Shown here: piece after piece, positions 4,405-50,685 of the stretch
How positions within the stretch are numbered: the stretch's first letter is position 1
Layout of the letters: the number at the start of each line of letters is the position of its first letter
DNA from: Kineosporia sp. A_224
Lineage (GTDB): Bacteria; Actinomycetota; Actinomycetes; Actinomycetales; Kineosporiaceae
DNA length: 64,000 nt
Direction of reading: 5' to 3'
Assembly: GCF_002198655.1 (NCBI RefSeq)
Contig: NZ_MWLN01000191.1
Location: forward strand, 62,001-126,000
Position numbers and translations under genes: made by a program
The notes under the pieces: generated by a model
Databases searched by the model: none
Told to the model about the DNA's origin: nothing
The model's input: only the letters and a program-made list of their open reading frames with translations

Positions 4405-5493
4405 TCAGAGGGACGGCGGGACGGCGACGGCTGGCTCGTAGTAGGGCGCGGCGCCGGGCGGCAGGTCGCGGCGGACGTAGTAGCTCTGGTCCTTGAGCTG
4501 GCGCAGGACCGCCGGGACGAGCTCGCGGTACGCGGCCCAGATCGAGGGGTACATCGGGGCGAGGTCGCCCTTGATCTGCTCGTGGAGCTCGGGCAGCCGG
4601 TGGTAGGGCACCATCGGGAACATGTGGTGCTCGACGTGGAAGTTCATGTTCCAGTAGAGGAACCGGTTGACGACGTTCATCCGGACCGAGCGGGTGTTGA
4701 GCCGGTGGTCGAGGACGTTCTCCCCCAGGCCGGCGTGCTGGGTGAGCCCGTACACGATGTGCATGAACGTCCCGTACATCCGCGGTCCGCCGACGAGCAG
4801 CAGCGGCAGCCACGACGACGTCACCACCGCGGTCGCCAGGGTCGCGGCGTAGACGAGCGACCAGAGTCGTGCGGTCCGGTAGGTGCGGAAGCGTTCCTGT
4901 TCCGGGATAGTGTCGGCTTCGTCGGTGGTGAGCCGCCCGGCGGCGTGGAGCAGCATCTTCCCCAACGACACCGGGACGTCGTAGAGGCCGAAGAGGTTGG
5001 CGAGCATGCGCACGAGCCGGGCCGGTCGCATCGCCTGGATCTCCGGGTCGCGGCCGACGATGAGGGTGTCGGTGTGGTGCCGGGTGTGGCCCCAGCGGTA
5101 GGCCGTGGGGTCGCGCATCATCATGAAGCAGGCCAGCTGGTAGACGGCGGTGTCCATCCACCGGGTCCGGAACGCCGTCCCGTGCCCGGCCTCGTGCCAG
5201 CGCGAGTCGCCGCCGGAGCCGTAGAGGACGCCGTAGACGAGCAGCAGCGGTACGGCGGCCCATGGGTGCCCGTGCACCCACAGCACGCCCCCGGCAGCGG
5301 CGCAGACGACCATGAGCCCGACCCAGATGACGGTGTCTCGGATCGCCGGCCCGTCGCTGCGTGCCATGAGCTCCTTGAGCCGCTTGCGCGGCACCTCGCT
5401 GTGGAACCACTGCGCCCCGGAGAGCCCGGAGTCCAGCGCCTGCCGCCCGGCCGGACTGTCGAGGGCGTACTGCGCCAGTCGTTCCCGGCCCAC
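4405..5493 (-). CDS. mocD: MocD-like membrane di-iron oxygenase (fatty acid desaturase fold)
   Basis: A 362-residue integral membrane protein with the three histidine boxes of the desaturase/AlkB fold: HEAGH, HTRHH and HVEHH, ligating a di-iron site. Hydrophobic segments lie around residues 55-95 and 180-225. GTG 5493 is the likely start, just after the upstream stop at 5499. In rhizobia, MocD with the Rieske ferredoxin MocE is implicated in oxidative removal of the rhizopine O-methyl group. The adjacent MocE-like gene and the inositol dehydrogenases make that role more likely here than lipid desaturation. The actual substrate is an inference. Confidence 0.75.
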   Translation of the reverse strand: MGRERLAQYALDSPAGRQALDSGLSGAQWFHSEVPRKRLKELMARSDGPAIRDTVIWVGLMVVCAAAGGVLWVHGHPWAAVPLLLVYGVLYGSGGDSRWHEAGHGTAFRTRWMDTAVYQLACFMMMRDPTAYRWGHTRHHTDTLIVGRDPEIQAMRPARLVRMLANLFGLYDVPVSLGKMLLHAAGRLTTDEADTIPEQERFRTYRTARLWSLVYAATLATAVVTSSWLPLLLVGGPRMYGTFMHIVYGLTQHAGLGENVLDHRLNTRSVRMNVVNRFLYWNMNFHVEHHMFPMVPYHRLPELHEQIKGDLAPMYPSIWAAYRELVPAVLRQLKDQSYYVRRDLPPGAAPYYEPAVAVPPSL

Positions 5494-5498
5494 CGGAC

Positions 5499-6512
5499 TC
5501 AGTCCTCGCCCGCGTACAGGGCAGGCTTGTCGGCGAGCACGACGTCGACCGGCTCGCCCTTGGCGTACGAGACGACGGCGGCCTCGGCGACGGCGGTCGC
5601 GGCGTAGCCGTCCCAGGTGCTCGGGCCGCCGACCCGGCCGACGGCGAGGCCGTCGACCCAGGTCTGCAGCTCGCGGGTGTAGGCCGGCTCGAACCGCTCC
5701 TGCCAGTCCGCGGGCACGCCTTCGCTGCGGTGGCCGGCCGTGATGACGACGGTGGTGCGCGGGTTGTCGAGGCTCACGGTGCCGAGCGACCCGACGATCT
5801 CGCAGCGGACGTCGTAGCCGTACTGGCAGTTGACGAACGACTCGACGGTGACGACCTCGCCGCCGGCCATCCGCAGGACGGCGATCTGCGGGTCGCGCAT
5901 CCCGTTCGCGGCGAGCGGACTCGTCTTCACCGGGAGCACGGTGACGCTCGCGATCTCGGCGCCGAACAGCCAGCGGAAGATGTCGAACTCGTGGACGAGG
6001 GAGTCGGTGAGCGACATCTCGCCGCGGAAGAAGTCCGGCACGGTGGCGTTCCGGTGGATGGCGTGCGCGAGCAGCGGCTCGCCGATGACCCCGTCCGCCA
6101 TGGCCTTCTTCACGTCGAGGTAACCGGCGTCGTAGCGGCGCATGAACCCGAGCTGGACGAGCCGGCGACCGGCGGCGGCCTCCGCCTGGAGCACCCGCAG
6201 CGCCTCGGCGGACGACGTCGCGAGCGGCTTCTCGCAGAGCACCGGCTTGCCGGCCGCGATGCACGCGATCGCCTGGTCGGGGTGCAGGTGCCCGGGTGAG
6301 GCGATGACGACCGCATCCACGTCGTCGGCGGCGACGACCGCCTCCCACGACGTGTGCGCGGTCGCGCCGGCTGTCGCGGCGACCTGATGCGCGCGCTCGG
6401 TCGCGACGTCGAACACCGCGGTCACCGTGGCGCCGGCGACGAGGGTCGTCAGGCGGGTGACGTGGTCGGCACCGATCATCCCGGTGCCGATGACGCCGAC
6501 TCTCAGGGTCAT
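5499..6512 (-). CDS. iolG: myo-Inositol 2-dehydrogenase (IolG), Gfo/Idh/MocA family
   Basis: 337 residues with an N-terminal Rossmann fold (GTGMIGADH near residue 9), the catalytic-lysine motif CEKPLA (about residue 97) and the H-x3-D pair in LVHEFDIFRW. The YGYDVRCEIVGS segment matches IolG-type proteins. It oxidises myo-inositol (or related isomers) with NAD+ to 2-keto-myo-inositol, the first step of inositol catabolism. It lies between another Gfo/Idh gene and the MocD oxygenase in one operon, so demethylation and ring oxidation are probably co-expressed. Of the five Gfo/Idh genes here this is the best match to IolG. Confidence 0.8.
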   Translation of the reverse strand: MTLRVGVIGTGMIGADHVTRLTTLVAGATVTAVFDVATERAHQVAATAGATAHTSWEAVVAADDVDAVVIASPGHLHPDQAIACIAAGKPVLCEKPLATSSAEALRVLQAEAAAGRRLVQLGFMRRYDAGYLDVKKAMADGVIGEPLLAHAIHRNATVPDFFRGEMSLTDSLVHEFDIFRWLFGAEIASVTVLPVKTSPLAANGMRDPQIAVLRMAGGEVVTVESFVNCQYGYDVRCEIVGSLGTVSLDNPRTTVVITAGHRSEGVPADWQERFEPAYTRELQTWVDGLAVGRVGGPSTWDGYAATAVAEAAVVSYAKGEPVDVVLADKPALYAGED

Positions 6513-40682: not shown

Positions 40683-42377
40683 CTACAGGTGGTAGAGCTG
40701 CTGCAGCGGGGCGCGCTCGATCGGCGGCATGTGCAGCTGGGCTCCGCGGAAGGTCGTCACGCCGGTCGCGGGGTCGACCTTGACCGGTCCGGTGATGCCG
40801 TGGTGCGCCATGGACCCGAGGCTGACGGTGCGGCAGCCCGTGACGGGAACGACCTGGCGACGGGTCGGGATCGGGACTGCCCCGGCTGCGGCTGCTGCGC
40901 CGTTGACGAACAGCAGGGACAGTTCGGCGGCGGTGGCGCCGTGACCGCCGAACTGCGCCCCGAGCACGAGGGGCTGGGCGCCGTCGATGGCGGCGTTCGG
41001 GTCGCCGGTGACTCCCCAGGCGGGGAAGCCTGACTTGAGGACCATCTCGGGCTTGGCGCCGAACATCGAGGGCCGCCAGAGCACGATGTCGGCGATCTTG
41101 CCGGGTTCGAGGCTGCCGACGTACTGGTCGAGTCCGTGGACGCGCGCCGGGTTGATGGTGAGCTTGGCGAGGTACCGCAGCACCCGTGCGTTGTCGTCCG
41201 TCAGGTCGGGCGCCGCGCCGGTGCGACGCTGCAGTGAGGTCAGGGCGCCCGCCAGCCCGAAGGTGCTGCGCCAGTTCTCACCGGCCCGTCCCATTCCTTG
41301 GGCGTCGGACGATGTGACGGGGATGACCCCGAGGTCGTGCAGGAGGTTCTCGGCGCCCATGGTGACGGCACGAACCCGGTCGTGGGTGAGTGCGGCGTCG
41401 CCGGGCAGGTCCGCACGCAGGCCGTGCACGTGGGCGATCATGGCGTGGTGCTCGGCCACGGCGTCGCGGCCGTAGGGCAACGTCGGGTTGGTGGAGGACG
41501 CCAGGACGTGGGGCACGCCGGCGAGGCTGAGCACGTCGGGTGTGTGGCCGCCGCCGCATCCTTCGACGTGGTAGGCGTGGATGGCTCGGCCGTCGAGCAC
41601 GGCGAGCGTGTCGTCGACCGTCAGCCCCTCGTTGAGGCCGTCGGTGTGGACCGCGACCTGGACGTCGTAGTCCTCCGCGACGGTGAGTGCGGTGTCGAGG
41701 GTGCGCAGGTGCGCGCCGGTGTCCTCGTGGACCTTGAAGCCGCAGACACCGGCTTCGAGCGCCTCGAGGAGCGGGTCACGCCGGCTCGAGGATCCGCGGC
41801 CGAGGATCCCGACGTTGACCGGGTAGTCGTCGAAGGCTGCGTAGCCGGTGCGAAGGACCCAGGCCGAGCCGACGCCGACGCCCCAGAACGGGCCGATCTC
41901 CTGACCGATGATGGTGGTGACGCCGGAGGCGAGCTCGGCCTCGCACACCCGCGGGGACAGCAGGTGCACGTGCGTGTCGACCCCTCCCGGGGTGGCGATC
42001 AGGCCTTCCCCGGAGACGACCGCCGTTCCGCTGCCGACGACGATGTCGACGTCGTCCATCGTGTCGGGGTTGCCCGCCTTGCCGATGCCGACGACGCGTC
42101 CCTCACGGATGCCGATGTTCGTGGCGCGGATGCCGAGAACGGGGTCGAGGAGCAGGACGTTGCTCACCAGCAGGTCGCAGGACCGGGCGGTCCGTACGGC
42201 CTGCAGGCCGATGCCGTCCCGGCCGGTCTTGCCGAAGCCGAAGAGGACCTCGTCGGCGTGCCGTCCCCGGTCGTCGCGCTCGACGCGGACGACGAGACCG
42301 GTGTCGCCGAGGACGACTCGGTCGTCGAGTCCGGGGCCGTACGCGCCGGCACGGGCGTGGGCGTCGAAGTGCGTCAT
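40683..42377 (-). CDS. ureC: Urease alpha-subunit-like amidohydrolase (UreC-like), divergent
   Basis: 564 residues with the full dinickel site. H136 and H138 sit in DTHVH, the carbamylated K215 and H217 in GFKVHEDTG, and H244, H270 and D358 follow. The catalytic H318 and R334 are also present. The flap cysteine next to H318, normally in a CHH-type motif, is replaced by V317 (HVHGL), and the surrounding flap is different. All four urease-type domains are present. ATG 42377 overlaps the fused UreAB gene by 4 bp. No UreD/E/F/G genes are nearby, and the neighbours process agmatine and polyamines. I infer a urease-like enzyme that may cleave a ureido compound, such as N-carbamoylputrescine, rather than free urea. 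Confidence 0.85.
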   Translation of the reverse strand: MTHFDAHARAGAYGPGLDDRVVLGDTGLVVRVERDDRGRHADEVLFGFGKTGRDGIGLQAVRTARSCDLLVSNVLLLDPVLGIRATNIGIREGRVVGIGKAGNPDTMDDVDIVVGSGTAVVSGEGLIATPGGVDTHVHLLSPRVCEAELASGVTTIIGQEIGPFWGVGVGSAWVLRTGYAAFDDYPVNVGILGRGSSSRRDPLLEALEAGVCGFKVHEDTGAHLRTLDTALTVAEDYDVQVAVHTDGLNEGLTVDDTLAVLDGRAIHAYHVEGCGGGHTPDVLSLAGVPHVLASSTNPTLPYGRDAVAEHHAMIAHVHGLRADLPGDAALTHDRVRAVTMGAENLLHDLGVIPVTSSDAQGMGRAGENWRSTFGLAGALTSLQRRTGAAPDLTDDNARVLRYLAKLTINPARVHGLDQYVGSLEPGKIADIVLWRPSMFGAKPEMVLKSGFPAWGVTGDPNAAIDGAQPLVLGAQFGGHGATAAELSLLFVNGAAAAAGAVPIPTRRQVVPVTGCRTVSLGSMAHHGITGPVKVDPATGVTTFRGAQLHMPPIERAPLQQLYHL

Positions 42378-43147
42378 CGCACGTCCCCCGGTCCGGACAT
42401 CGCGTGGGCCGCGGCCGCGGCGGCGGCGGCGGCGGACTGGGGGCGGTCGAGGTCGAGGAAACCCCAGGCGCGAGCCCGCTTCAGAGCAGCGTCCCGTGCG
42501 CCGGGGGCATCCAGCGGCCCGTCGACGAGCCCGGAGAAGCCGACGACGACCCGCGCCCCGCGCACGGGCACCAAGGACACGGTCGTCGTCGTCCCCGGCT
42601 CGAACCGCATGTGGGTCCCCGCAGGGACGTCGAGGTGCATCCCGTACGCCGTGGCACGCGAGAACCTGAGCCGGGCGTTGCTCTCGAAGAAGTGGAAGTG
42701 GCTGGTCACCGAGATGGGGACCGACGCCGTGTTGAGCACCTCGACCTCGACGCGCTCCGCGCGACCGGCGGCGTCCTGCGAGCGGGTGCCCGGCGCTTGT
42801 GCCGCAGCCACGATGGCGCCCGGCATGTCGTCACGGTCCGGCACCGGCCCGAAGGGCTCGCTCACCACGACCAGCCGCGAGCCGTCGGCGAAGACGGCCT
42901 CCACCGATACCGCCCGGACGACGTAGGGCACCTCGGGAAGCACCTGGGAGCCGGTCAGCACTGCGCGCCCTTCAGCGACCGCCTCGACGTGGCGAGCCCC
43001 TCGACGTGCCGCCTCGCAGACAGCGTCGGCGACCACAGCGGTCGCCTCCGGCACGTTCAGCAGGACGCCCGCAGCGACCCGGCGACGAGCGAGCTCGGCG
43101 GCGGAGAACAGCAGCAGCCGGTCGCGCTCGGTCGGTGTGAGGTGCAC
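42374..43147 (-). CDS. ureAB: Fused urease gamma-beta subunit (UreAB)
   Basis: 257 residues. Residues 1-100 are UreA-like (LTPTERDRLLLFSAAELARRRVAAGVLLNVPEA ... VEAVFADGSRLVVV), and about 115-235 are UreB-like (SHFHFFESNARLRFSR, RFEPGTTTTVSLV). Such fusions are known. The Ala-rich tail (about 235-250) is unusual. GTG 43147 follows a GAGAGAGG site. It is transcribed divergently from the agmatine deiminase gene, with a TTGACYGAA-TT-TTCAGTCA dyad in its promoter, and feeds UreC. Confidence 0.88.
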   Translation of the reverse strand: MHLTPTERDRLLLFSAAELARRRVAAGVLLNVPEATAVVADAVCEAARRGARHVEAVAEGRAVLTGSQVLPEVPYVVRAVSVEAVFADGSRLVVVSEPFGPVPDRDDMPGAIVAAAQAPGTRSQDAAGRAERVEVEVLNTASVPISVTSHFHFFESNARLRFSRATAYGMHLDVPAGTHMRFEPGTTTTVSLVPVRGARVVVGFSGLVDGPLDAPGARDAALKRARAWGFLDLDRPQSAAAAAAAAAHAMSGPGDVR

Positions 43148-43168: not shown

Positions 43169-43187
43169 TTGACCGAATTTTCAGTCA
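43169..43187. promoter_or_regulatory. TetR-type operator on the UreAB side
   Basis: TTGACCGAATTTTCAGTCA is a near-perfect dyad differing at one base from the partner site at 43225. It lies 22 bp upstream of the UreAB start. Two copies in one divergent promoter suggest coordinate control of urease-like and deiminase genes. Confidence 0.6.
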
Positions 43188-43224
43188 CGCCACGGTAGAG
43201 CCGCACCCTCCTCGGAACAAGGCC

Positions 43225-43244
43225 TTGACTGAATTTTCAGTCAA
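43225..43244. promoter_or_regulatory. TetR-type operator on the agmatine deiminase side
   Basis: TTGACTGAA-TT-TTCAGTCAA is a perfect 9-bp dyad around a TT centre, 17 bp before the deiminase start. Its TTGACT half may also serve as a -35 element. The TetR protein encoded at 48765 in the same operon is the likely binder, perhaps sensing agmatine or a derivative. Confidence 0.7.
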
Positions 43245-43261: not shown

Positions 43262-44398
43262 ATGAGCAGCTCGATCACCACCGGTGACCCGGAGACGGGC
43301 ATCCAGACTGGCTACCGTGCAGAGCTTGCGCCGCACGGTGTTTCGGCAGTCCCTCGGCGCCCGCGGCCGGACGTCGACCCTCGCCTGGCGGACTACCGCA
43401 TGCCCGCTGAGTGGGACGTCCACGAGCGCACGCTGGTGACCTGGCCCACGCGAGCCGACCTGTGGGCCGGCGCGTTCTCCGACGCCGAGCACGACTACGC
43501 GGCGGTCGTGCGGGCCGTCGCGCAGTTCGAGCCGGTCACGGTAGTGGCGCTGCCCGGTCGCCGGTCCCGGGTCGTCGACCTGTGCGGCGCGGACGTCGAC
43601 GTCCTGGAGGCGCCGGTCGACGACTCGTGGATCCGGGACAACGGCCCGCTCGTCGTGCGACGCGCGGACGGGCACCGCCTCGGGGTCGACTTCGGCTTCA
43701 ACTCCTGGGGCCGAAAGTTCCTCCCGTACGACGCCGACGCGGGCCTCGCAGCCCGGGTCCTGGACCACCTGGGCATCGAGCGGGTCGGTGTCGACATGGT
43801 CCTCGAGGGGGGCAGCATCAGCGTGGACGGCGAGGGGACTCTTGTCACGACGGCCCAGTGTCTGCTGCACAGCAACCGCAACCCGGGGTTGTCCCAGAGC
43901 GACGCGGAAGCCGTCCTGCAGGAGGCGCTCGGTGTCCGCCGTGTGCTGATGCTGCCGTTCGGGCACCTGGACGACCGGCACACCGATGGGCACGTCGACG
44001 GCGTGTGCACCTTCACCGCCCCGGGACACGTCCTGGTCCAGACCTGCGGCGACCCCCGCAACGTCAACCACGAGGCGATGGCCCGCAACCTGCGCTACCT
44101 GCGGGACGTCCCCGACGCGTCTGACCGGTTCGTCGCGGTGAACGGCTTGGACCTGTTCTCCGCCGTCACCGTCGAGGGCGTCGAGGACTACGTCTCCTAC
44201 GCGAACTTCTACATCGTCAACGGTGCGGTCATCGTCCCGCTCAGCGGGAACCGCGACGACGACGAGCGGGCCATGGGCGTCATCGGCGGATGTCTTCCCG
44301 GCCGTCAGGTCGTCGGCGTGCCCGGCGCGGTCATCGCCTTCGGCGGTGGAGGCCCGCACTGCATCACGATGCAGATCCCCGCCGCGGAGGCCCGATGA
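43262..44398 (+). CDS. aguA: Agmatine deiminase (cytosolic)
   Basis: 378 residues without a signal peptide. Family motifs in order: MPAEWDVHERTLVTWPTRAD, DDSWIRDNGP, the EGGSISVDGEGT stretch, RNPGLS, DGHVDG and the catalytic Cys367 in GGGGPHCITMQ. The guanidine-group-modifying enzyme turns agmatine into N-carbamoylputrescine and ammonia. It starts the operon deiminase-potA-potD-potBC-TetR, with the stop overlapping the ATPase start by 4 bp. A nitrilase-type carbamoylputrescine amidase (AguB) is absent from the cluster. Confidence 0.88.
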   Translation: MSSSITTGDPETGIQTGYRAELAPHGVSAVPRRPRPDVDPRLADYRMPAEWDVHERTLVTWPTRADLWAGAFSDAEHDYAAVVRAVAQFEPVTVVALPGRRSRVVDLCGADVDVLEAPVDDSWIRDNGPLVVRRADGHRLGVDFGFNSWGRKFLPYDADAGLAARVLDHLGIERVGVDMVLEGGSISVDGEGTLVTTAQCLLHSNRNPGLSQSDAEAVLQEALGVRRVLMLPFGHLDDRHTDGHVDGVCTFTAPGHVLVQTCGDPRNVNHEAMARNLRYLRDVPDASDRFVAVNGLDLFSAVTVEGVEDYVSYANFYIVNGAVIVPLSGNRDDDERAMGVIGGCLPGRQVVGVPGAVIAFGGGGPHCITMQIPAAEAR

Positions 44399-45636
44399 GC
44401 GGCGGCCGTTCGCCCGACGTGGTCACCGTCACGCCTGGCGATGCGGGACGACCCACGGGACAGGGAGCCGGGTCTGCGCCGGAGGACGGCGAGGCGCCCG
44501 GGAGCGGGCGCGGCGCCGTCCGGCTCGAGCGACTCACCAAGCGGTACCCGGGCACGACCGCGGTGGACGACCTGTCGCTGACCGTGGCCGCCGGGGAGTT
44601 CGTCGCCCTGCTCGGCCCCTCCGGCTGCGGCAAGTCCACCACCTTGCGGATGTTGGCCGGGCTCGAGCAGCCCGACGCGGGCGTGGTGCGCGTGTCCGGT
44701 GTCGACGTCACCAGAACCCCGGCACACCGCCGGGACATCCACACCGTGTTCCAGTCGTACGCGCTGTTCCCGCATCTGGACGTCGCGGACAACATCGCGT
44801 TCCCGCTGCGGCAGCGGGGGCTGGCCCGCTCCCAGGTCGCCGCGCGGGTTCAGGAGGCCCTCGACGTGGTCCGGTTGCCCCACGCCGCGAAGCTGTCCGT
44901 CACCAGCCTGTCGGGCGGGCAGCAGCAGCGCGTCGCCCTGGCCCGTGCAGTCGTCGACCGCCCCAGCGTCCTTCTGCTCGACGAGCCGCTCTCCGCGCTC
45001 GACCGGGCACTGCGGCAGGCGATGCAGGTCGAGCTACGGCTGCTGCAGCAAGAACTCGGGATCACCACGGTCCTGGTCACCCACGACCAGGAGGAAGCCC
45101 TCAGCCTCGCCGACCGGATCGTCGTGATGTCCGAGGGCCGCATCGTCCAGCAGGGCACCGCCGAGCAGATCTACGACCACCCGGCCACCCTGTTCGCGGC
45201 ACGCTTCGTCGGGGAGAACAACGAGCTGCCCGGGCACAGCGACGGCACGGGCACACTCACGCACCCGGCTGTGACCGCCATCAGCGCCAGCCCCACCGTC
45301 GCAGGCCCGGCTCTCGCACTCGTCCGTCCTGAGCACGTAAGGGTCACCGAGCTCCCGGCCGCCGCACCGCACCACCCGCGACCGGAACCCGGGGCAGCAG
45401 ACCACGTCCCGGACGCCGTCCCCGGCGTCAACACCGTCTCCGGGGTCGTCCGCGGGGCCAGCGTCGCGGGGATGTCCTCCCTCGTCCTGGTCCAGGTGGA
45501 CCACGACACCACCGTCCTCGCCCGCGTCCCTCGCGACGGCCGGCGGCTGCCTTCCGCCGGCCAGAGCGTGCAGTGCTCGTGGCAGGCCCAGCACGTGCGT
45601 ATCTTCCCCCTCCAGGACGGAGCCCACCGGCCATGA
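44395..45636 (+). CDS. potA: Polyamine ABC transporter ATP-binding protein (PotA-like)
   Basis: 413 residues. After a 35-residue disordered start come Walker A GPSGCGKST, signature LSGGQQQ, Walker B LLLDEPLS and the switch His in VTHDQEEAL. A C-terminal TOBE domain follows (ALVRPEHVRV ... GVVRGASVAGM). The TOBE domain and VGENNELPG are typical of PotA/spermidine-type importers. Start ATG 44395 overlaps the deiminase stop. Confidence 0.88.
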   Translation: MSGGRSPDVVTVTPGDAGRPTGQGAGSAPEDGEAPGSGRGAVRLERLTKRYPGTTAVDDLSLTVAAGEFVALLGPSGCGKSTTLRMLAGLEQPDAGVVRVSGVDVTRTPAHRRDIHTVFQSYALFPHLDVADNIAFPLRQRGLARSQVAARVQEALDVVRLPHAAKLSVTSLSGGQQQRVALARAVVDRPSVLLLDEPLSALDRALRQAMQVELRLLQQELGITTVLVTHDQEEALSLADRIVVMSEGRIVQQGTAEQIYDHPATLFAARFVGENNELPGHSDGTGTLTHPAVTAISASPTVAGPALALVRPEHVRVTELPAAAPHHPRPEPGAADHVPDAVPGVNTVSGVVRGASVAGMSSLVLVQVDHDTTVLARVPRDGRRLPSAGQSVQCSWQAQHVRIFPLQDGAHRP

Positions 45637-46808
45637 CCGGACCCACCGCACCCCGACGGCCGAGCACCGGCCTGACCCGCCGCCAGTTCGGCACCTCGCT
45701 CGCACTGCTCTCCGGGGGCCTGCTCTCCGGCGGGCTGCTGTCGGCCTGCGGGTCGAACGGCTCCAAGGGCACGTCCGCGGCCGCCACCAGCTACCCGACG
45801 GCCGTCTCCCGGGGATCGACGCTGCACGTCTACTCGTGGGCGGACTACATCTCCCCGGACGCCATCAAGTCGTTCCAGGACAAGACCGGCGTCACCGTCC
45901 AGGTCGACACCTACGACTCCGCCGAGCAGGCCGTGGCCAAGCTGCGCGTCACCCAGGGCACGAGCGGGTACGACCTGGTCGTCATGGACGGTTCCTACGT
46001 CCCCCAGCTCAGCAGCGCCGGCGCCCTGCTCGCATGGGACAAGACCCGGCTGCCGTCGATGGAGGGACTGTCGCAGACCTTCCTCGCCAAGGCCTGGGAC
46101 CCCACGAACACCTACGCCATCCCGAAGTCCGGCGGCTCCACCGGGTACGTCTGGGACAGCGCCGTCGTCACCGGCGCCATCACGACATGGGACGACTTCT
46201 ACGCCCGGTTCGCCGACGCGGCCGTGGACGGCCGTACCTCGGTCATCGACGGCGCGCCCTCGTTCATCTCGTCCTACTTCTGGGGTCACGCGGTCTCCGA
46301 CCAGACAACGGACCCGGCCCAGTACCAGGCCGCCGAGAAGTACTTCACCGAGAAGGTGCTGCCGCACCTGGCCCAGTTCAACTCCTACCCGCGTGCCGAC
46401 CTGGCCAAGGGCACGGTCGTTCTCGCGCAGGCCTTCACCGGCGACGCCCGTGGCGCGCTCATCGACGGACCGAAGACGCTGAAGTTCGCTCTCGGCGGCC
46501 CCAAGAGCGACCTGTACGTCGACCACTGGGTGCTGCCGAACGGCACGAAGTCCCCGGCCGCCGCGCACGCCTTCGTCGAGCACGTCCTCCAACCCGCCAA
46601 CGCGGCCGCCGAGACGACCTTCCACGGCTACTTCACCGGGGTCACCGCCTCGAAGGACCTGCTCCCCGCCGACATGCCGCACAAGGAGATCATCTTCTTC
46701 GACGAGGGCGTTCCCGCCGACCACTTCGAACCGGCGACGGTCACCCCGGCGGCCCGCAAGCTCTCTCTGGCCACCTTCGAACGGCTCAAGGCGCTGGCGG
46801 CCAAATGA
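45633..46808 (+). CDS. potD: Polyamine-binding lipoprotein (PotD-like)
   Basis: 391 residues. The N-terminus carries both a twin-arginine motif (LTRRQFG) and a lipobox LSAC, so export is probably by Tat with lipidation. The mature part is a PotD/PotF-type binding fold (LHVYSWADYISPDAIKSFQDKTG, YDLVVMDGSYV). The first residues match polyamine-binding proteins, so spermidine, putrescine or carbamoylputrescine are candidate ligands. Overlaps both neighbours by 4 bp. Confidence 0.86.
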   Translation: MTGPTAPRRPSTGLTRRQFGTSLALLSGGLLSGGLLSACGSNGSKGTSAAATSYPTAVSRGSTLHVYSWADYISPDAIKSFQDKTGVTVQVDTYDSAEQAVAKLRVTQGTSGYDLVVMDGSYVPQLSSAGALLAWDKTRLPSMEGLSQTFLAKAWDPTNTYAIPKSGGSTGYVWDSAVVTGAITTWDDFYARFADAAVDGRTSVIDGAPSFISSYFWGHAVSDQTTDPAQYQAAEKYFTEKVLPHLAQFNSYPRADLAKGTVVLAQAFTGDARGALIDGPKTLKFALGGPKSDLYVDHWVLPNGTKSPAAAHAFVEHVLQPANAAAETTFHGYFTGVTASKDLLPADMPHKEIIFFDEGVPADHFEPATVTPAARKLSLATFERLKALAAK

Positions 46809-48631
46809 GAACCACCACCGCCCGCGGCCCCCACCGCACCGCTGGTGGACGCCTGCGGACCGCGGGCCTGCCCGGACGGGGCCGCCCACGGCCGACCAGG
46901 AACCTGGCCGGGCTGCCGGCCTTCGTCTGGCTCGCCGCGTTCTTCGTCCTGCCGGCCGGGCTCGTCGCCGTCTACAGCCTGGGCGAGAGCTCCCTGTTCG
47001 GTTCCAGCCCGGTCGACCTCAGCCGACCCACGACCGACCGCTACCAGGAGGCCTTCAGCGACACCTTCCGGATCGTCCTGGCCAACACCCTGCGCCTGTC
47101 CGTGGTCGGCACCACCCTGTGCGTCCTGCTGGCCCTGCCGGTCGCCTACGCGATCGCGACCCGGATCCACGGCCGCTGGCGCTACCTCGTGGTCGCCGCT
47201 GTCGTCGTCCCGTACTGGACGCCGTTCCTGCTGCGCACGTACGCCTGGCGCATCCTGCTCGACGACCGCGGCCCCCTGACGGCCGTCGGCGTCCACGACG
47301 GGTTCGGGCTCCTCGACACCCGCGGCGGCGCACAGCTCGGGGTCGTCTACAACTACCTGCCGCTGGCGATCCTGCCGATCTTCGTCGCACTGGACCGGCT
47401 CGACCCCGCCGTGCGCCGCGCCGGCCGCGACCTCGGCGCCACACCCTGGCGCGTCTTCTGGCAGGTGACGCTGCCTGCCGTCCGGCCCGGCCTGATCACC
47501 GCCGCCCTGCTGGTCTTCGTCCCGCTCATGGGCGACTACGTCACCCCGAGCGTGCTCGGCGGCGTCCGCGCCACCGTCGTCGGCAACTTCGTCTACGACT
47601 CCTTCCTCGCCGGGCAGGACTGGGCTCTCGGCGCGGCCGCAGCCGTCATCCTCGTCGGTGTCGTCGCCGCCCTGCTGGCGCTGGCCTGGGTGCTGTCCGC
47701 GCTGGCAATCCGGGTCCTACGCATCGTGCGGCCGCTCGATATCACCGCGCGCCTGCGCGCCCGGACCACGACGCCGGAACGTCCCATCGCGGGCAGCGGG
47801 TCCGAGCGACGCGAACGTGACCTGTGGGGGGTGGCGCTGCGCGGCTACACCGTGCTGCTCGTCGCCTTCCTGTGGCTCCCGATCCTCACGATCGTCAGCT
47901 CGTCGTTCAACACCGGCAACACCCTCGCGGTGTGGACGGGGTTCGGGACCCGTTGGTACACAGCCGTCCCGCACAACGACGCGCTGCTGTCCTCGATCGC
48001 CGTGTCGCTGCGCGTCGCTGCGCTCTCGACCGTCGTGGCCGTTCTGATCGGCACCCTTGCCGGCATCGCTCTGGTCCGTGCCGGACGTGCGACCCGCACC
48101 GGCCTCAACGGACTGCTCGTCCTGGTGTTCACCACCCCGGAGATCGTCACAGCCGTCGGCCTGCTGGTGCTGTACGTCGCGGCAGGGACCATCGCCTCCG
48201 ACGGCACCGCACGACTGGTCATCGCGCACTCGGTGATCTCCGTGACCGTCGTCGCGTTCGTCGTCCGGGCCCGTCTCGCAGGTCTGGACCCACGACTGCC
48301 CGACGCCGCCGCCGACCTCGGCGCGGCCCCCGGCGCCGTCCTGCGCAAGGTCCTCCTGCCGCTCACGCTGCCCGCCGTCGCCGCCGGCGCGATGCTCGCC
48401 TCGACGACGTCCCTGGACGACGTCGTCACCTCGAGCATGCTCGGCAACGTCGGCACAACGACCCTGCCGGTCTACATCTACTCCACGCTGCGTACCGGCC
48501 TGAAGGGAGACGCTGCCGCCGCAGGTGTGCTTCTCACCTGCCTCGTGGCCCTCTCCACCGCCCTCGTCGTCGCCCTGCTCGGCCGCCGCCGCCAAGGCGC
48601 AGCGGCGTTCCGCAGCCTCCTCGGCGGCTGA
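46805..48631 (+). CDS. potBC: Fused polyamine ABC permease (PotB-PotC)
   Basis: 608 residues with two permease halves in one chain. Half 1 (about residues 38-310) is PotB-like with the EAA-loop-like segment RRAGRDLGATPWRVFWQVTLP. Half 2 (about 345-600) is PotC-like with DAAADLGAAPGAVLRKVLLPLTLP. Each half has about six helices. PotB and PotC are normally separate, so this is a fusion. ATG 46805 overlaps PotD's stop by 4 bp. Confidence 0.85.
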   Translation: MRTTTARGPHRTAGGRLRTAGLPGRGRPRPTRNLAGLPAFVWLAAFFVLPAGLVAVYSLGESSLFGSSPVDLSRPTTDRYQEAFSDTFRIVLANTLRLSVVGTTLCVLLALPVAYAIATRIHGRWRYLVVAAVVVPYWTPFLLRTYAWRILLDDRGPLTAVGVHDGFGLLDTRGGAQLGVVYNYLPLAILPIFVALDRLDPAVRRAGRDLGATPWRVFWQVTLPAVRPGLITAALLVFVPLMGDYVTPSVLGGVRATVVGNFVYDSFLAGQDWALGAAAAVILVGVVAALLALAWVLSALAIRVLRIVRPLDITARLRARTTTPERPIAGSGSERRERDLWGVALRGYTVLLVAFLWLPILTIVSSSFNTGNTLAVWTGFGTRWYTAVPHNDALLSSIAVSLRVAALSTVVAVLIGTLAGIALVRAGRATRTGLNGLLVLVFTTPEIVTAVGLLVLYVAAGTIASDGTARLVIAHSVISVTVVAFVVRARLAGLDPRLPDAAADLGAAPGAVLRKVLLPLTLPAVAAGAMLASTTSLDDVVTSSMLGNVGTTTLPVYIYSTLRTGLKGDAAAAGVLLTCLVALSTALVVALLGRRRQGAAAFRSLLGG

Positions 48632-48764: not shown

Positions 48765-49418
48765 GTGACCGACCGCCGCAGCGAGCTCCTCGACGCAACC
48801 ATCACCGTCATCGCCCGACGCGGCGTACGCGGCCTGCGCGTCCAGGAGGTCGCCGCCGAGGCCGGCGTCTCGGTCCCCCTCATCTACCACTACTACGGCA
48901 ACCGCGAGGGCCTGCTCACCGCAGCCCTGGCAGCCGTCAACGACCGGGCAGACCGCTACTCCACCGAAGCGGCCCACCCGGCAGCCACACCACGAGAAGA
49001 GCTCACCGCACGACTCCTCGGCGAGCTCCAGGACACCCCCGAGGTCCACACCACCTCCAGCGCCTGGGGAGAGCTGCGCTGGGCCTCCGTCTTCGACGAC
49101 ACCCTGCGGCCGGACGTCGCCCGGCTCACCGCCGAATGGGTCGACCACATCGCCGCACTCATCCAACATGTCCAGGACCACGAGAAGACCTCCGACCCCG
49201 ACGGACGCCACCCCCACGAGACCGCCGAGATCCTGGTCGCCCTCGTCGAAGGGCTCTCCGGTCGCTGGCTCACCGGCGCGATCGACGTGCCGCACCTGCG
49301 TCATCTGCTGGAGCTCGCCATCACCCGTGAGCTTCCGCCGCCACCGGCCCCGCGCAGAGCCGGCGCCCGGCGCAGCCCGACGAAGCACCCAGAACCACCG
49401 CGAAGCAGCGCCCGCTGA
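48765..49418 (+). CDS. TetR-family regulator of the agmatine/urease module
   Basis: 217 residues from GTG 48765. The N-terminal HTH is LLDATITVIARRGVRGLRVQEVAAEAGVSVPLIYHYYGNREGLL, and the C-terminal tail is Pro/Arg-rich. It is 133 bp after the fused permease and 80 bp before the second deiminase gene, on the same strand. It is the natural candidate to bind the two TTGACTGAA dyads at 43169-43244. Confidence 0.85.
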   Translation: MTDRRSELLDATITVIARRGVRGLRVQEVAAEAGVSVPLIYHYYGNREGLLTAALAAVNDRADRYSTEAAHPAATPREELTARLLGELQDTPEVHTTSSAWGELRWASVFDDTLRPDVARLTAEWVDHIAALIQHVQDHEKTSDPDGRHPHETAEILVALVEGLSGRWLTGAIDVPHLRHLLELAITRELPPPPAPRRAGARRSPTKHPEPPRSSAR

Positions 49419-49497: not shown

Positions 49498-50685
49498 ATG
49501 CCCGGACCCGGGAGCGACCTCCCCCTCACCAGGCGGTCGCTCATCGGTGCCCTCCTCACTGCACCCGCGCTGGGGAGCCTCAGCGCCTGCGCGACCCCCT
49601 CGAGTTCCCCCGGGGGCAACGACGGCGACGCTGAGGGTGAGGGACACAGCAGCCTGAGCCGTCCTGAGGCACCGACCCCGGCCGACCGCCCCCGGATGCC
49701 CGACGAGGGCAGCGCGCACTCCCGCACCTGGATGGCCTTCGGAGCCAGCGCGGAGATCTGGGGCGCGGACCTGCTGGAGCAGGTCCGATCCGACCTGGCC
49801 GCCGTAGCCCGAGCGATCGCGCGGCACGAGCCGGTCACCGCGCTCGTGCGCCCGCACGAACGGGACCTGGCCCATGACTACCTCGGCAGCAAGGTCACGC
49901 TGCTCGACGCCCCGCTCGACGACCTGTGGATCAGGGACAGCGGACCCACGTTCGTCACCGGTCGCACCGGCGTCGCAGCCGTCGACTTCAACTTCAACGG
50001 CTGGGGGGACAAGCAGGCCCACACCGCCGACGCCGCGGTCGCCGCTCGGGTCGCGTCGGCCGCCGGGTGCCCACGGCACCGCAGCGAACTGGTCCTCGAA
50101 GGCGGCGCCCTCGAGGTCGACGGGCACGGCACCGCGATCATCACCGAGAGCTGCGTCCTCAACGACAACCGCAACCCCGGTTGGTCCCGGACGGACGTCG
50201 AGGCCGAGCTCGCCGACACGCTCGGAATCGATCACGTCATCTGGCTGCCCGGCATCGCCGGGCAGGACATCACCGACGGCCACACCGACTTCTACGCGCG
50301 CTTCGTCCGGCCAGGCGTCGTCGTCGCAGCCCGCGACGACGACCCGGCCTCCTTCGACCACGACGTCACCCGGCGGCACCTCCGGATCCTCACCGACGCC
50401 CGCGACCGTGCAGGACGGCGACTGCAGGTCGCGGAGCTCCCGGCACCGCGGGACCTGCGCCCCGAGATCCTCACCGACGACTTCGCAGCGGGATACGTGA
50501 ACTTCTACGTGTGCAACGGTGCCGTCATCGCCCCGAGGTTCGGCGACGCTCGCGCCGACGCCGCGGCCGCGGCCACTCTCCAGAGGCTCTACCCGGACCG
50601 GCAGGTCGCCCAGGTCAGGATCGACGGCATCGCCGCCGGCGGCGGCGGGATCCACTGCTCAACACAACAGCAGCCGCACGCCTGA
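49498..50685 (+). CDS. Exported agmatine deiminase-like lipoprotein
   Basis: 395 residues. The N-terminus is a Tat lipoprotein signal: twin arginine in LTRRSLIGALL, then a lipobox LSAC. A Gly/Asp/Glu-rich linker follows. The catalytic domain keeps DDLWIRDSGP, RNPGWS, DGHTDF (an HTD rather than the HVD of the cytosolic enzyme) and the Cys387 motif GGGGIHCSTQQQP. It would deiminate agmatine or a peptidyl arginine outside the cell, with products taken up by the Pot system. Functional placement is inferred. Confidence 0.82.
   Translation: MPGPGSDLPLTRRSLIGALLTAPALGSLSACATPSSSPGGNDGDAEGEGHSSLSRPEAPTPADRPRMPDEGSAHSRTWMAFGASAEIWGADLLEQVRSDLAAVARAIARHEPVTALVRPHERDLAHDYLGSKVTLLDAPLDDLWIRDSGPTFVTGRTGVAAVDFNFNGWGDKQAHTADAAVAARVASAAGCPRHRSELVLEGGALEVDGHGTAIITESCVLNDNRNPGWSRTDVEAELADTLGIDHVIWLPGIAGQDITDGHTDFYARFVRPGVVVAARDDDPASFDHDVTRRHLRILTDARDRAGRRLQVAELPAPRDLRPEILTDDFAAGYVNFYVCNGAVIAPRFGDARADAAAAATLQRLYPDRQVAQVRIDGIAAGGGGIHCSTQQQPHA

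Follow-up and report, generated by a model that had tools for sequence, protein, structure and literature searches.

A fused-UreAB branch of the urease family in actinomycetes with a rebuilt substrate pocket and a genomic link to agmatine deiminases: a candidate N-carbamoylputrescine hydrolase

Urease is treated as essentially a one-substrate family served by dedicated nickel-insertion machinery. In Klebsiella aerogenes urease (KAU), the substrate pocket is formed by Ala167, His219, Glu220, Asp221, Gly277, Cys319, His320, Arg336, Ala363, and Met364, with the backbone carbonyls of Ala167 and Ala363 serving as hydrogen-bond acceptors for urea, while the flap cysteine, too distant from urea to act as general acid, has instead been proposed to orient His320 (PMC7433671). 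Clusters of ure(AB)C genes without accessory genes have been known in Streptomyces since 2008 (PMC2492869; later PMC5489568). SCO5525-5526 have been described as urea-utilising, with SCO5527 being listed separately as a homologue of the arginine decarboxylase pathway (PMC3293853). N-carbamoylputrescine, the product of agmatine deiminase, is converted to putrescine by AguB, AguY, or putrescine transcarbamylase; of these, AguY was first singled out because its gene adjoins aguA, and its activity was then established biochemically, also for an enzyme from an actinomycete (PMC12283126). In the open-licence literature, no report was found of a urease-family enzyme acting on N-carbamoylputrescine, or of another substrate for the Streptomyces genes.

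The window considered here, namely, the whole 64-kb stretch of DNA analysed, encodes a fused UreAB and a UreC that show full-length homology to UreA, UreB, and UreC. The features of this region are collected in Table 1; Rfam and tRNA scans of the 64-kb window returned no matches. Window UreC passes the broader subfamily model NF009686 and misses the NCBIfam urease equivalog TIGR01792 (561.3 bits; cut-off, 680). Three UreC genes are found in the window's genome, namely, a canonical version on C99 that is accompanied by UreF, UreG, and UreD, the window copy, and a C111 paralogue that is 66% identical to window UreC and carries the same loop, referred to here as the GQE loop. A scan of public genomes yielded 80 loci, mostly from Streptomyces but also from Kribbella, Nonomuraea, Streptosporangium, Kineosporia, and others, all presenting the GQE loop. 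In a phylogenetic tree, the GQE UreC sequences were monophyletic (support 100/100), and, judged by sequence, the GQE clade corresponds to an actinomycete branch of the urease family with fused UreAB. In the class sample, GQE members had profile scores of at least 767 bits, as compared to at most 641 bits for canonical UreC, and none was detected outside the class in a 399-genome phylum sample.

Table 1. Features of the window discussed in the text, with positions numbered from its first nucleotide
Feature	Position	Strand	Basis
ureC-like gene, 564 aa, GQE clade	40683..42377	-	profile search, tree
G361 (= KAU Ala363)	41295..41297	-	alignment
Flap segment, residues 308-337 (KAU 310-339)	41367..41456	-	alignment; flap limits from PMC7433671
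V317 (= KAU Cys319), flap	41427..41429	-	alignment with KAU; H318 (= KAU His320) at 41424-41426
Rebuilt substrate loop, residues 158-173 (GQEIGPFWGVGVGSAW), four residues shorter than urease	41859..41906	-	alignment
Fused ureAB-like gene, 257 aa, 4-base overlap with ureC	42374..43147	-	profile search
Palindrome copy 1 (TTGACCGAATTTTCAGTCAC), putative TetR operator	43169..43188	.	divergent promoter search
Palindrome copy 2 (TTGACTGAATTTTCAGTCAA), putative TetR operator	43225..43244	.	divergent promoter search
Agmatine-deiminase-family gene AgDI1	43262..44398	+	profile search; alignments to solved agmatine deiminases
PotA-like ABC transporter ATPase (start inferred)	44395..45636	+	profile search
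PotD/PotF-like substrate-binding protein (start inferred)	45633..46808	+	profile search
Fused PotB-PotC-like permease (start inferred)	46805..48631	+	position and sequence character
TetR-family regulator, BetI-like (start inferred)	48765..49418	+	profile search
Second agmatine-deiminase-family gene AgDI2, Tat/lipoprotein-like N-terminus	49498..50685	+	profile search

Other unusual UreC sequences were also encountered. Those in L113 (4932-6620) and L114 (about 4877-6502) are non-canonical, with a GMGxGGVWDVG loop and no flap Cys, and adjoin an amidohydrolase-3 gene, with no UreG match in the locus; these represent a second orphan urease branch. The UreC of L112 (G039), with a GGGLGPVT loop, a retained flap Cys, a Gly at the Ala363 site, and an adjacent UreG, is an intermediate-looking canonical form.

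Alignment with KAU revealed where the pocket of the GQE enzymes departs from that of urease. In each of the 91 clade members, KAU Gly157-Gly158 are replaced by Gln159-Glu160, Ala163 by Trp165, and Ala363 by Gly361, and KAU residues 170-173 are absent. In window UreC, V169 stands in place of Ala167 within the loop that is four residues shorter. The urease substrate loop, GGGTGP with Ala167, plus Ala363, is not present in this protein, and seven of the ten KAU pocket residues are identical, those differing being Ala167 (V169), Cys319 (V317), and Ala363 (G361). The metal ligands, the bridging Lys, and the equivalents of the catalytic His219, Asp221, His320, and Arg336 are kept in all 91 aligned sequences. 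A structure predicted from the sequences of 19 clade members was of low quality (mean pLDDT 42). Such retention of the metal ligands and catalytic residues would suit a protein that is still a urease, that is, a second urea hydrolase with altered kinetics, pH response, or inhibitor response, matured by housekeeping UreDFG where present. The fact that the two changed contacts, Ala167 and Ala363, act via their backbone carbonyls (PMC7433671) also speaks for a urease. Set against this is the failure to reach the equivalog cut-off (561 vs. 680 bits), and, when the maturation genes and neighbouring genes described below are also weighed, retention of urease function appears rather unlikely.

The original prediction, based on the flap, held that a valine in place of the conserved cysteine preceding the catalytic histidine points to altered substrate access. 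Alignment with KAU, whose sequence was taken from solved-structure matches, bore out the observation. The Klebsiella Cys319 site is indeed occupied by V317, His320 and Arg336 are retained as H318 and R334, and H136, H138, K215, H217, H244, H270, and D358 all lie at the positions quoted, with D219 being present as well. The numbering was exact, with the span originally noted (41420-41433, minus strand) covering parts of residues 315-320. Because a Cys occupies the flap site in 14 of 14 canonical ureases compared, while the 91 relatives (window included) present V (77), A (8), C (2), S (2), or T (2), the change can be considered real and clade-wide, rather than a sequencing error. Nonetheless, loss of the flap Cys was rejected as defining function. 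The residue at this site changes from one clade member to another, and two Nonomuraea sequences retain Cys together with the invariant loop, such that loss of the cysteine is neither necessary nor sufficient. Indeed, as Q159, E160, W165, G361, and the deletion are invariant in the 91 sequences and the flap site varies, the flap substitution is the least constrained of the pocket changes. The missing cysteine, a residue conserved in urease yet not strictly required, would thus appear to be a minor part of the change in pocket and function. Altered substrate specificity remains likely, as originally proposed, with the evidence coming not from the cysteine but from loop 158-173, G361, and gene context; the larger changes to the pocket (the loop, W165, V169, and G361) had been missed.

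The distribution of maturation genes was next considered. UreD, UreF, and UreG were found in none of 90 GQE loci, although 15 of 22 GQE genomes contain UreG, UreF, and UreD scoring over cut-off. The window's genome, with UreDFG elsewhere (C99), is a case in which a GQE enzyme acting as a urease could be served by the canonical machinery. In six GQE genomes (G018, G021, G043, G143, G161, and G197), however, canonical UreC is absent and none of UreD, UreF, and UreG scores over cut-off, a distribution that argues against the enzyme being a urease. These genomes are 96-99% complete and come from four families; a canonical operon might be lost to an assembly gap in one genome, but such a loss is hard to credit in six. 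In a seventh genome (G067), the canonical ureC is broken by an in-frame stop and the GQE operon is intact (L122), with no UreF or UreG over cut-off and UreD appearing only as a sub-threshold fragment. HypB over cut-off was, moreover, absent in five of these seven genomes. The absence of UreD, UreF, and UreG from such accessory-less genomes suggests that the GQE enzyme is loaded without dedicated nickel chaperones.

Examination of the genes surrounding ureABC revealed a recurring partner. A deiminase-family gene lies no more than 1.5 kb from UreABC in 83 of 90 GQE loci, mostly within about 200 bases. Across the class sample, the deiminase family is present in 22 of 22 GQE genomes, as compared to 24 of 176 others (Fisher p about 9e-17, although the genomes are related and the counts overstate independence). 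In the window, AgDI1 and ureAB are divergently oriented, and downstream of AgDI1 come a Pot-type transporter, the TetR gene, and AgDI2. AgDI1 carries the motifs of the family, namely, the HC(I)T segment with the active-site Cys, LEGGS, and the His/Asp segment. Both AgDI1 (269.6 bits) and AgDI2 (262 bits) miss the TIGR03380 agmatine deiminase equivalog (cut-off, 381.8), as do the deiminase homologues that adjoin AguY-like amidases (263 bits). A window-like arrangement, together with a class III aminotransferase and an alanine dehydrogenase, is seen in Kribbella (L007), while in L090 (G018), ureABC lies amid a transporter, an FAD amine oxidase, a semialdehyde-dehydrogenase-like enzyme, and an aminotransferase; the neighbours in both loci are putrescine-type catabolic genes. 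A linked deiminase makes a ureido compound rather than urea, a further point against the enzyme being a urease, despite the Streptomyces genes being listed as urea-utilising (PMC3293853).

The N-terminus of AgDI2 contains a twin-arginine-like stretch and a lipobox-like LSAC, with similar N-termini being found in several related loci. These elements suggest that AgDI2 is possibly an exported lipoprotein, which may deiminate agmatine outside the cell before uptake.

The promoter common to the divergent ureAB and AgDI1 genes holds both copies of a palindrome, with none being expected by chance in 64 kb. Close copies are found in L007, L022, L031, L033, L073, L076, L080, L097, and L131, namely, those loci that also contain a homologue of the window TetR gene. 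The copies precede deiminase genes and, in L033 and L097, lie near the start of ureAB. Such recurrence in TetR-carrying loci points to a single regulon, and we infer that the TetR protein would bind the palindrome.

Deiminase loci were also compared in actinomycete genomes that lack GQE members (25 loci), with partners being found by neighbour clustering and alignment. Within about 210 bases of the deiminase, an AguB-like nitrilase was found in 11 loci and an amidase of about 570 residues, the size of AguY, in eight. The latter were judged AguY-like by size, family, and position. UreC was beside the deiminase in none of the 25 loci and, conversely, neither an AguB-like nitrilase nor an AguY-like amidase was found in the GQE loci. 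In the deiminase tree, the partner alternates within one well-supported part, with two or more switches between UreABC and the other partner types; AgDI1 falls outside this part, on a different branch with Kribbella and some Streptomyces. It is mainly because of this partner exchange that N-carbamoylputrescine is proposed as substrate. In the window's genome, the best AguB match scored 72 bits (cut-off, 410) and no putrescine transcarbamylase over cut-off was found. At the same time, 17 of 22 GQE genomes contain an unlinked nitrilase scoring 240-262 bits against the AguB model, which equals or exceeds the scores of the deiminase-linked nitrilases (199-207 bits). Given these unlinked AguB-like nitrilases, the N-carbamoylputrescine step may not be empty in those 17 genomes, and the argument that AguB-like enzymes are absent from all GQE genomes is weakened. 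AguB-like nitrilases by actinomycete deiminases (L130, L133, L137, L141, and others) score about half the AguB equivalog cut-off, such that the AguB family model seems to leave out actinomycetes.

Not all GQE members share this context. In L005 (8638-10389; contig C111), the second GQE-type UreABC of the window's genome has amidohydrolase-3 and NCS1 permease genes as neighbours and, at a distance of a few kb, genes for agmatinase and amidase; it probably has a different substrate. In some GQE members, this paralogue included, amidohydrolase-3 takes the deiminase's place as neighbour, and these enzymes may act on other substrates. It could be asked whether the GQE enzyme acts on a different ureido compound (4-ureidobutyrate, 3-ureidopropionate, or a purine or hydantoin ureido product, for example), in which case the deiminase would take a guanidino substrate distinct from agmatine, and sub-branches may differ. 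Arguing otherwise are the genes for polyamine-type transport and putrescine-type catabolism in the window, L007, and L090, together with the fact that, elsewhere, this deiminase lineage is paired with AguB-like and AguY-like enzymes. In light of these, another ureido substrate is considered unlikely, even with the C111 gene set, the cytosine/purine/allantoin-type permease that is a conserved neighbour of ureAB in Streptomyces loci (L041), and the sub-cut-off scores of the deiminases in its favour. A urease relative that is catalytically dead or has a structural role, as might be entertained given that nickel loading is not assured with accessory genes absent nearby, is highly improbable, considering the invariance of the catalytic residues in 91 sequences and an operon structure conserved across many genera.

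UreABC of the GQE clade is best explained as a divergent urease-family hydrolase for which urea is probably no longer the main substrate, with N-carbamoylputrescine or a close carbamoyl-amine being the most likely one, a reading held with moderate confidence. It builds on the observed sequence changes, clade, linkage, partner exchange, accessory-gene absence, and palindrome, and from these proposes a substrate, roles for single residues, a metal, and regulation. As UreABC takes up the position that in other bacteria belongs to the enzyme completing agmatine breakdown, its substrate is probably a carbamoylated amine, not urea. The Pot-type transporter would import agmatine or its deiminated product, the deiminases would produce N-carbamoylputrescine from agmatine, and UreABC would cleave the terminal carbamoyl group to yield the amine (putrescine), CO2, and ammonia, in place of AguB or AguY. 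In the urease-urea complex, one nitrogen is on the metal and the other points to the channel (PMC7433671). The amide end of the proposed substrate could similarly sit on the bimetal centre, with its alkyl chain running along the channel under the flap, in the direction of the distal nitrogen of urea, and with putrescine being the leaving amine. This space would take on a new shape through the shortened loop together with W165, E160, G361, and the flap residue; room for the chain could come from the shorter loop and the small residues at 361 and 317, and E160 could meet the far amino group. Maturation would proceed without UreD, UreF, and UreG and, in several hosts, without HypB as well. More tentative, and close to evenly balanced, is the broader proposal that urease has given rise to a further, unrelated solution to N-carbamoylputrescine hydrolysis, in a widespread actinomycete family that keeps the bimetal core, dispenses with accessory proteins, and perhaps relies on a metal other than nickel. 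Should this be true, this actinomycete branch would show how the specificity and metal dependence of urease can change, the missing hydrolase would be named for many agmatine pathways, and the annotation as a second urease, from which urea use is predicted, would be mistaken for many genes of Streptomyces and relatives.

Comparison with described systems places the GQE enzymes as follows. Canonical nickel urease (UreABC, EC 3.5.1.5; Klebsiella aerogenes, Sporosarcina pasteurii) is of the same fold family, with the same subunits and metal ligands, and the equivalents of His219, Asp221, His320, Arg336, Gly277, and Met364 are shared. By contrast, the canonical loop, GGGTGPAxG, is GQExGPxWG in the GQE enzymes, with four residues deleted, Ala363 is replaced by Gly, the flap Cys is variable, and there is neither linkage to nor genome-level dependence on UreDFG. 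SCO5525-5526 share with the window the same gene organisation, fused AB, lack of accessory genes, and an adjoining AguA homologue, SCO5527 (PMC2492869, PMC3293853), and were judged, from the Streptomyces loci in this analysis, to belong to the GQE clade; these reports treat the Streptomyces ure(AB)C products as urease, without mention of pocket changes or an agmatine link (PMC2492869, PMC3293853). Helicobacter mustelae UreA2B2 (3qga) is a second urease encoded alongside a canonical one, much as the GQE enzyme is in the window's genome. Unlike what is proposed for the GQE enzyme, it hydrolyses urea, and the similarity between the two is moderate (456.6 bits). UreA2B2 is an iron urease that matures without nickel accessory proteins and is not known to be linked to agmatine genes. 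The AguB nitrilase, which is not metal-dependent, shares the proposed reaction and the position by a deiminase, and differs in being of an unrelated fold. In terms of function, UreABC is found where an N-carbamoylputrescine amidohydrolase would be expected, adjacent to an agmatine-deiminase-family gene, while by sequence it belongs to the urease family rather than to those of AguB or AguY, such that it would be an unrelated enzyme for the step performed by these two. AguY, a member of an unrelated protein family whose reaction has been proven biochemically, likewise stands beside agmatine deiminase in actinomycetes and catalyses the same reaction as that proposed here for GQE UreABC (PMC12283126).
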